Shown here piece after piece: positions 9,861 through 10,863 of a stretch of 35,851 nt of DNA. Both the position numbers and the translations under genes were made by a program. The DNA is taken from positions 1 to 35,851 of the forward strand of contig CAMCCX010000023.1 in the NCBI GenBank assembly GCA_945873305.1, in the 5' to 3' direction. Origin of the DNA: Akkermansia muciniphila. GTDB lineage: Bacteria; Verrucomicrobiota; Verrucomicrobiia; Verrucomicrobiales; Akkermansiaceae. Numbering within the stretch: position 1 is the first letter of the stretch; each line of letters starts with the position of its first letter. The notes under the pieces were generated by a model that had not been told where the DNA came from, searched no databases, and was given only the letters and a program-made list of their open reading frames with translations.

Positions 9861-9894
9861 AAAAAAGAGGCGGGAGATCCGAAGATCTCCCGCC
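9861..9894 (-). terminator. Rho-independent terminator of the BlaI/H1-like gene
   Basis: A perfect 11-bp GC-rich stem (9869-9879 with 9884-9894) is capped by a UUCG-type loop when read on the minus strand and is followed by TCTTTTTT (9868-9861). It lies about 80 bases after the stop codon at 9975. Confidence 0.85.
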
Positions 9895-9974
9895 GTTGAC
9901 AAGCCCTGGGCGGCGGGCAGCGGCGCGGTCGACTTGAAAGCACGACGTCCGAAGTCCGCTCCGAGGGCTTTTAA

Positions 9975-10733
9975 TTATTTCTTAGCAGCCTTCTTGGCAG
10001 CCTTCTTCGCGGTTTTCTTTGCTGGGGCGGCCTTCTTGGCAGGGGCCTTCTTCGCAGGAGCAGCCTTTTTAGCAGGAGCGGCTTTCTTGGCGGCGGCCTT
10101 CTTTGCAGGGGCTGCTTTCTTGGCGACCGTCTTCTTCACCGCTTTTTTGGCGGCTTTCTTGGCGCTTTTTGCGACTTTCTTCACCGCTTTCTTGGCTGCC
10201 TTTTTAGCAGGAGCCTTTTTGGCGGGGGCTTTCTTTGCCGCTTTTTTAGCTGCCTTCTTGGCCGGGGCCTTTTTGGCCGGGGCTTTGGTTGCAGCTTTCT
10301 TCACGGCCTTCTTTGCGGGTGCCTTTTTGGCAACTTTCTTTGCTGTTTTTTTTGCAGCCATAGTTTTGTGTCGTTGGAGTTCGCGTTCGATGTTTGTTTT
10401 CTCTTCCGGCGTTAATGTGCCGGCGGAGAGGATAGCGAGGAGCGCCTCACCGAGGCGTCCTCCAAAAGCGTTAGTCAGGAAGTCGTGGGTCGCGCGCTGC
10501 ACGATCACTTCCTGCGAGTAAGCAGCCGCGTAAACATGCGCCCTGCCGACCAGCGCGCGTTTCACCAGGCTCTTGCGCTCGAGACTTTGCATCACGGAGA
10601 GAACGGTGGTGTAGGCCCGGTCCTTTCTATCGGGCAGCGTCTCGTGGACCGCGGCAACCGTCGATGGCCCTTCGTGCCACAAAACGGATAGGGCTTGAAG
10701 TTCGAGATTGGATGGATGGGTAGGCCGCGCCAT
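9975..10733 (-). CDS. BlaI/MecI-type transcriptional regulator fused to a histone H1-like Lys/Ala-rich tail
   Basis: From the ATG at 10733 the protein has 252 residues. Residues 1 to about 123 form a BlaI/MecI/CopY winged-helix repressor: LELQALSVLWHEGPSTVAAV, then the recognition region DRKDRAYTTVLSVMQSLERK and the C-terminal dimerisation helices. Residues 125-252 are almost purely Lys, Ala and Pro in KKAPAKKA repeats, as in bacterial histone H1-like nucleoid proteins. The two parts are in one frame with no stop. The tail begins MAAKK with an internal ATG at 10361, so a separate H1-like protein could also be made, but I see no ribosome binding site there. Two dyads in the promoter (10762-10774, 10847-10863) suggest autoregulation. 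No sensor/protease (BlaR) gene is nearby. Confidence 0.8.
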   Translation of the reverse strand: MARPTHPSNLELQALSVLWHEGPSTVAAVHETLPDRKDRAYTTVLSVMQSLERKSLVKRALVGRAHVYAAAYSQEVIVQRATHDFLTNAFGGRLGEALLAILSAGTLTPEEKTNIERELQRHKTMAAKKTAKKVAKKAPAKKAVKKAATKAPAKKAPAKKAAKKAAKKAPAKKAPAKKAAKKAVKKVAKSAKKAAKKAVKKTVAKKAAPAKKAAAKKAAPAKKAAPAKKAPAKKAAPAKKTAKKAAKKAAKK

Positions 10734-10761: not shown

Positions 10762-10774
10762 AAACTAGTAGTTT
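10762..10774. promoter_or_regulatory. Dyad AAACTA-G-TAGTTT, candidate operator
   Basis: This perfect 6+6 inverted repeat around a single G lies 28 bases upstream of the BlaI/H1-like start at 10733. BlaI-family repressors bind short dyads with ACTA/TAGT-type half-sites in their own promoters, so self-regulation is a reasonable inference. Confidence 0.4.
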
Positions 10775-10846
10775 GGATCTCCGTCAAGTTGAAACGTCCC
10801 GAATTTTAAGAAGTCTGAAATATTTTCGCGGCGCGCTGTCCTTGTT

Positions 10847-10863
10847 ACTACGAGAGCCGTAGT
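10847..10863. promoter_or_regulatory. Dyad ACTACG-N5-CGTAGT, second candidate operator
   Basis: A perfect 6-bp inverted repeat (10847-10852 and 10858-10863) lies about 85 bases upstream of the first dyad, between the BlaI/H1-like gene and the stop of the gene upstream. It shares the ACTA/TAGT core with the dyad at 10762. It has no T-run and does not look like a terminator. Confidence 0.35.

Follow-up and report, generated by a model that had tools for sequence, protein, structure and literature searches.

A probable H1-like gene nested in frame in blaI, with a counterpart in ppdK of another family

The BlaI/MecI/CopY repressors (PF03965) share a complete domain with the product of the gene described here, named blaI-H1. 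The blaI-H1 product differs from them in having a long basic tail and a putative nested start, and a PF05569 search of its genome (95% complete) found no M56 (BlaR1-type) sensor protease as a partner. An N-terminal domain followed by a basic, H1-like tail of KPAA repeats is also found in AlgP of Pseudomonas, where the repeat region spans 154 amino acids, and in PhaF (PMC9239181). The N-terminal domain of AlgP differs from BlaI, and the accessible part of that paper makes no mention of a nested start (PMC9239181). Hc2 (HctB) of Chlamydia is an H1-like, DNA-binding protein built of lysine-rich repeats, whose gain and loss change its length (PMC2848022). Unlike the blaI-H1 tail it is encoded by its own gene, and its likeness, as well as that of AlgP, is a functional one. 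In the case of Cas11b, a smaller protein arises by internal in-frame translation within a longer gene (PMC11899642). That protein belongs to another class, whereas the nested unit in blaI is H1-like and has a counterpart in a second host gene, ppdK. The unusual feature of the locus is a probable nested, in-frame H1-like gene; another family has a similar one in a different host gene. Such an arrangement was not found described in the literature on BlaI tails, internal starts and nucleoid proteins of Verrucomicrobia, as covered by titles and abstracts, with subscription papers mostly outside the search.

The blaI-H1 gene and its distribution

The window, which is the whole stretch of 35,851 nucleotides analysed, contains the following features of the gene.

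9975..10733, minus strand: blaI-H1 ORF (fusion product), ATG start, 252 amino acids plus stop
10374..10712, minus strand: BlaI/MecI (Penicillinase_R) domain, PF03965 profile match
9975..10361, minus strand: putative nested ORF, H1-like, opening at the internal ATG; 128 residues counting Met, plus stop
9869..9894, minus strand: terminator-like (intrinsic) hairpin and T-run 3' of the gene, from a sequence scan

The PF03965 profile matched residues 8 to 120 of the product (profile positions 2 to 114 of 115; E = 2.1e-23), with 83.3 bits against a cut-off of 22.6, and this was the sole PF03965 match in the genome (95% complete). The domain runs into 127 residues past Met125 (54 K, 52 A, 10 P, 6 V, 4 T and 1 S). 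The codon of Met125 occupies 10361 to 10359, in frame with the domain. Both the complete BlaI/MecI domain joined to a Lys/Ala/Pro tail and the internal ATG at the junction, as proposed in the earlier note, were therefore recovered. The tail is H1-like by composition only: a Pfam search gave zero matches for it, HC2 (PF07382) included, and NF038053 scored 13.2 bits against a curated cut-off of 80. The single solved-structure sequence matching at E <= 0.001 was 2g9w (E = 5.2e-12), whose record is titled conserved hypothetical protein and which we take to be BlaI of M. tuberculosis. An antisense ORF at 9934-10521 (plus strand) was read as a mirror of the lysine codons and set aside. Downstream, tRNA-Val (9788-9714) lies beyond the terminator-like hairpin; 11 such terminator-like sites were found in the scanned region against 4.5 expected.

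At a threshold of E <= 1e-30, an ortholog of blaI-H1 was present in 54 of the 97 genomes of the family (f1, apparently Akkermansiaceae). All 54 were read, and in every one the frame was open beyond the junction, ending at a stop codon in 44 (including L022, which has a run of N within the tail) and at the contig end in 10. This rules out an assembly error, including the loss of a stop near 10361 that had been named earlier as a possible cause of the fusion, and the BlaI-H1 fusion is real and common in the family. The contigs of L028, L032, L035, L039, L040, L042, L043, L047, L054 and L055 end inside the repeat tail, indicating that assemblies often truncate tails of this kind. In the family search, no blaI-H1 match came from the ten g3 genomes. 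Named relatives with an ortholog include Luteolibacter, Haloferula and Roseibacillus, along with many metagenome-assembled genomes titled Akkermansiaceae, such titles being labels. Two overlapping collections yielded 135 loci of the f1 type. The junction Met was present in 121 that also passed the filters; the other 14 comprise eight orthologs without Met, five second copies of the g11 ones and one locus cut at the Met.

In a search of the order, some BlaI match was detected in 122 of 189 genomes, and a match at 1e-12 in 29 of 288 genomes of a phylum sample. Twenty further loci were obtained: L138 and eight from families f3 and f6 (L140, L142-L148) are fused, ten are unfused and L149 stands apart. 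The domain pair, which the earlier note had suggested searching for among relatives, is therefore found in L138 and in the eight f3/f6 loci besides the 54 family genomes. In L149 (genome G106, f3) the BlaI frame stops early and an intact H1-like ORF follows in another frame, a split that may be genuine or may come from a sequencing error. In a tree of 42 domains, one branch (96/95) separated 31 of the fused type from 11 unfused ones, a division consistent with one origin; L144 sits on a long branch. The genome of L138 (G211) is placed in f2, yet its fused BlaI closely resembles copies from g16 of f1, such as L043; either transfer or a binning error may explain this placement.

The putative internal start

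The junction Met was kept in 46 of the 54 family orthologs. It is missing from L025, L026, L027, L029, L030 and L044 in g11, from L033 in g15, which retains a long tail, and from L046 in g12. All eight in-frame tailed copies of f3 and f6 have the Met, which opens MA(A/V)KKK or MAKKK, and the linkers ahead of it vary in both sequence and length. Shine-Dalgarno-like motifs precede the Met in L143 (AAGGAG) and L145 (AAGGAA), and no such motif was seen before Met125 by inspection of 51 f1 copies. At the nucleotide level, the following features were found around the internal ATG.

10353..10406, minus strand: reduced synonymous variation around the internal ATG, codons 110-127 (codon comparison)
10362..10399, minus strand: G-poor, weakly structured leader just 5' of the internal ATG (G content, folding)
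10400..10429, minus strand: stem-loop 2, spanning about -68 to -39 relative to the internal ATG (folding)
10439..10463, minus strand: stem-loop 1, spanning about -102 to -78 relative to the internal ATG (folding)

In 25 disjoint nearest pairs of orthologs, 303 of 363 comparisons in codons 110-127 were identical and 60 different (83% identity), compared with 805 identical and 746 different of 1551 (52%) in codons 5-85. The odds ratio was 4.7 with p = 2e-30, a nominal value because the cells are not fully independent. Codons 86-108 were likewise constrained in these pairs (327/481 identical), and so part of the synonymous signal may serve something else. Of the 12 highest-ranking windows of nine codons in 51 orthologs (nucleotide identity below 85%), 11 began at codons 109-119 and the other at 95.

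G makes up 16% of the 30 nt before the internal ATG and 26% of the remaining BlaI part, the upstream fraction being the lower of the two in 92% of 51 orthologs. Compared with synonymous shuffles, folding was weaker in windows that start 27 and 21 nt 5' of the ATG (mean z 1.45 and 1.34; 51 orthologs), and this unfolding peaked at the internal ATG. The mean minimum free energy was -1.6 at the junction; the annotated start gave -4.0, and an internal Met used as a control (43 copies) gave -7.5. Just after the Met, AAA made up 68% of the Lys codons, compared with 40% in the remaining tail (50 copies), and 81% of the Ala codons ended in A or T, again compared with 40% (48 copies). Of seven f3/f6 copies that were folded (the near-identical L147 was left out), five had z above 0 (0.2 to 1.2). 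L143 and L145 showed no unfolding at the Met by the shuffle test, with z of -1.0 and -0.5.

Free-standing genes and a second host

In 8 of 10 g11 genomes a free-standing MAAKK gene adjoins gluQ (L211-L215, L217, L219 and L220). The gluQ locus of G074, of G088 and of the window's own genome holds no free-standing H1-like gene, an absence that applies to this locus only. The free-standing gene presumably starts at the Met; in-frame TTG or GTG codons lie upstream in seven of the eight. Its protein matched PF07382 with E = 6.8, below the cut-off. By mean folding energy, which has no shuffle control here, the eight genes show a structured segment followed by an open, A/C-rich leader and the ATG. 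ACTAC, GTAGT, CTACGA and TCGTAG were absent within 260 nt upstream in all eight, and control of the free-standing gene by BlaI was rejected for want of an operator-like element there.

Seven g11 genomes hold both a blaI ortholog and the free-standing gene; G074 and G096 have no blaI-H1 ortholog at E <= 1e-30. G010 and G067 retain the internal Met, followed by 132 and 53 residues. In G023, G033, G042, G051 and G059, Leu occupies the Met position and is followed by 23-34 residues of basic tail. Consensus codons at 110-124 numbered 19/22 in the two Met-bearing copies and 13/35 in the five Met-less ones, whose own background in codons 5-85 is 113/268, indicating that identity had fallen to background. 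The upstream G fraction was not raised in these five (0.17), and two of them were still unfolded. In the tree, the Met-less L025, L027, L030 and L044 are nested in a group from which G010 and then G067 branch first; the free gene, if of one origin, therefore predates the loss of the Met. The pattern counts as one or two events, because it comes from a single lineage.

This lineage looks like a natural experiment in which an in-frame nested gene resolves into two genes. The short tails in five of the seven genomes lean against the long tail being kept for the sake of BlaI. The earlier note had held that orthologs with the two parts as separate genes would count against an unusual repressor with a condensing tail and possibly two products. 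Such separation exists in part, as a separate H1-like gene in g11 and as frames apart in L149, but the g11 BlaI beside the separate gene keeps a short basic tail. The fusion proved real and widespread, and comparative sequence evidence backs the internal start; g11 and L149 fit the idea of an internal start better than that of repression coupled to compaction.

In the remaining Met-less orthologs, L033 (G015), L044 (G088) and L046 (G034), no clear loss of the codon signature was seen (5/6, 4/6 and 4/7), and some distant Met-bearing copies scored no higher (L034 5/9, L050 5/8, L055 5/9). No separate H1-like gene was found in G015, G088 or G034 among the matches read, one weak match in G034 being left out, in searches that are insensitive: 22 of 176 candidates were scored in the window's own genome, and part of the matches were read in relatives.

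A similar arrangement was detected in ppdK of family f4 (L252-L275), where the 3' end runs in frame into a Met-started H1-like ORF in 23 of 24 genomes, these being hand-picked and four of them chosen for earlier matches. The linker is mostly Asn/Thr-rich and leads to MAKKAAKK, and AGGA, GAGG or GGAG lies 4-18 nt before the internal ATG in 21 of the 23. In the 24th genome, G099, ppdK has a short tail without Met. The ppdK ends obtained from 28 of 32 genomes of other families and lineages had no H1-like ORF, and many had short Lys/Ala ends. The 22 junctions folded (masked L261 left out) showed structure, an open leader and the ATG, by mean energy with no shuffle control. The order of hairpin, open leader and ATG is thus common to blaI of f1, ppdK of f4 and the free-standing gene.

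Lysine-rich, H1-like extensions were also seen on DksA/TraR-like proteins (L193, L230, L231, L236, L243, L250), on sigma-70-like proteins (L232, L245) and on a Rho-like protein (L247), all apparently core proteins of transcription, the names being given by eye.

Proposed products of the frame and their control

Taken together, these comparisons make it likely that an H1-like gene is nested in frame in blaI and that the locus yields the fusion and, probably, a free H1-like protein. Weighing against this reading are the lack of a Shine-Dalgarno-like motif before Met125 in f1 and the three Met-less orthologs (L033, L044 and L046) for which insensitive searches found no separate gene. If only the full-length protein were made, Met125 would be an ordinary residue, and the tail might raise non-specific DNA affinity or bridge DNA at BlaI targets. 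The frame that is open past the junction in all 54 family orthologs would suit a single product, as would the short basic tails of the five Met-less g11 orthologs, the long tail of L033 and the occurrence of lysine-rich extensions on several other proteins in these genomes. A single product is nevertheless improbable, since it leaves unaccounted for the synonymous constraint, the unfolding and the A/T-ending codons at the ATG, the Met that follows differing linkers in f3 and f6, the ribosome-binding-like motifs before the ppdK counterpart, and the five g11 copies that lost the Met and the codon signature together.

The constraint might instead come from another RNA or DNA element, such as a small RNA, a processing site, an internal promoter or an antisense signal, that ends at the junction by chance. 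Both upstream stem-loops were more stable than synonymous shuffles (z -1.7 and -1.6). Their paired fraction of 0.957 beat 200 of 200 column shuffles (null maximum 0.950), and the consensus folding energy of -11.8 lay below the null mean (-8.4) but above the lowest of 40 null values, -12.9; the folding and column-shuffle nulls ignore relatedness among the orthologs. The stem-loops, together with a constraint that reaches codons 86-108, would be expected of such an element. However, the unfolding peaks at the ATG, the same order of hairpin, open leader and ATG stands ahead of the free-standing gene, and the Met itself is retained in 46 of 54 orthologs; we consider this explanation unlikely. A conserved -35/-10 pair was not seen by eye near Met125 in f1 copies. 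That lysine-rich modules spread between genes by recombination, with Met-Ala-x-Lys-Lys as a copied module edge and no functional start, is very unlikely: the motif also opens extensions of DksA/TraR-like and sigma-70-like proteins, but there it lies at or near the frame start, and most of the constraint falls ahead of the ATG, in BlaI codons absent from lysine modules.

Under the nested-gene reading, one reading frame would be used from two translation starts. Start 1 (10733) would give BlaI with a long basic tail, and start 2 (10361) a free Lys/Ala/Pro-rich protein of 128 residues. The stem-loops followed by an open, G-poor leader of roughly 38 nt would expose start 2. The likeliest role of the free product is to coat or compact nucleic acid, the role proposed for AlgP-type tails and for Hc2 of Chlamydia, and the fusion may bring the same basic segment to BlaI operators. 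We infer the use of start 2, the ratio of the products, autoregulation and DNA binding from these comparisons. Both products would come from one promoter, probably repressed by the BlaI part, and the region upstream of the first start contains the following candidate elements.

10782..10787, minus strand: TTGACG, -35-like promoter element (TTGAC survey of orthologs)
10762..10774, no strand assigned: AAACTACTAGTTT, operator-like element within the promoter (read from sequence)
10847..10863, no strand assigned: dyad ACTACG-N5-CGTAGT, possible BlaI operator (dyad shuffle survey)

Of 57 orthologs, 42 have TTGAC 30-90 nt 5' of the first start, compared with about 5% expected in shuffles; a consensus scan of the region reported no sigma-70 site. 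In 26 of 57 upstream regions the best ACTACGAT...ATCGTAGT dyad, often 126-150 nt upstream, reached p <= 0.05 (40 shuffles); this statistic is no more than suggestive, since the consensus derives from those regions themselves. The element at 10762-10774 and the dyad presumably resemble BlaI/MecI operators, and autorepression of blaI-H1 is plausible on these sequence grounds. If BlaI does control the free H1-like protein, the supply of a chromatin protein would be tied to a repressor of the same frame. Annotation of the open frame alone would give one long BlaI-like protein and miss a likely separate nucleoid protein. The question of the internal start is directly testable, since the cultured relatives Luteolibacter pohnpeiensis (L090), Haloferula rosea (L110) and Roseibacillus persicicus (L135) carry the fused gene with the Met.

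A wider view, which we put forward tentatively as quite possible, is that the H1-like genes of the order are nested passengers of the 3' ends of host genes, that they can become free-standing, after which the inner start of the host decays, and that blaI represents an autoregulated pair. Each passenger would have its own initiation leader, no stop codon ahead of it and a place at the in-frame 3' end of different hosts, namely blaI in Akkermansiaceae and two related families and ppdK in another family. In blaI, one ORF would then supply a targeted BlaI-H1 protein and a free nucleoid coat as that autoregulated pair.

In three g11 genomes (G010, G023 and G051; L276, L280 and L282), ppdK lies about 3 kb from blaI-H1 on the same contig. 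A small basic protein that starts with MG, contains a stretch rich in Lys and Arg and carries a Lys/Ala tail was recurrent (L183, L189, L192, L195, L204, L225, L240, L242 and L244) and was also seen in genomes without the blaI fusion.
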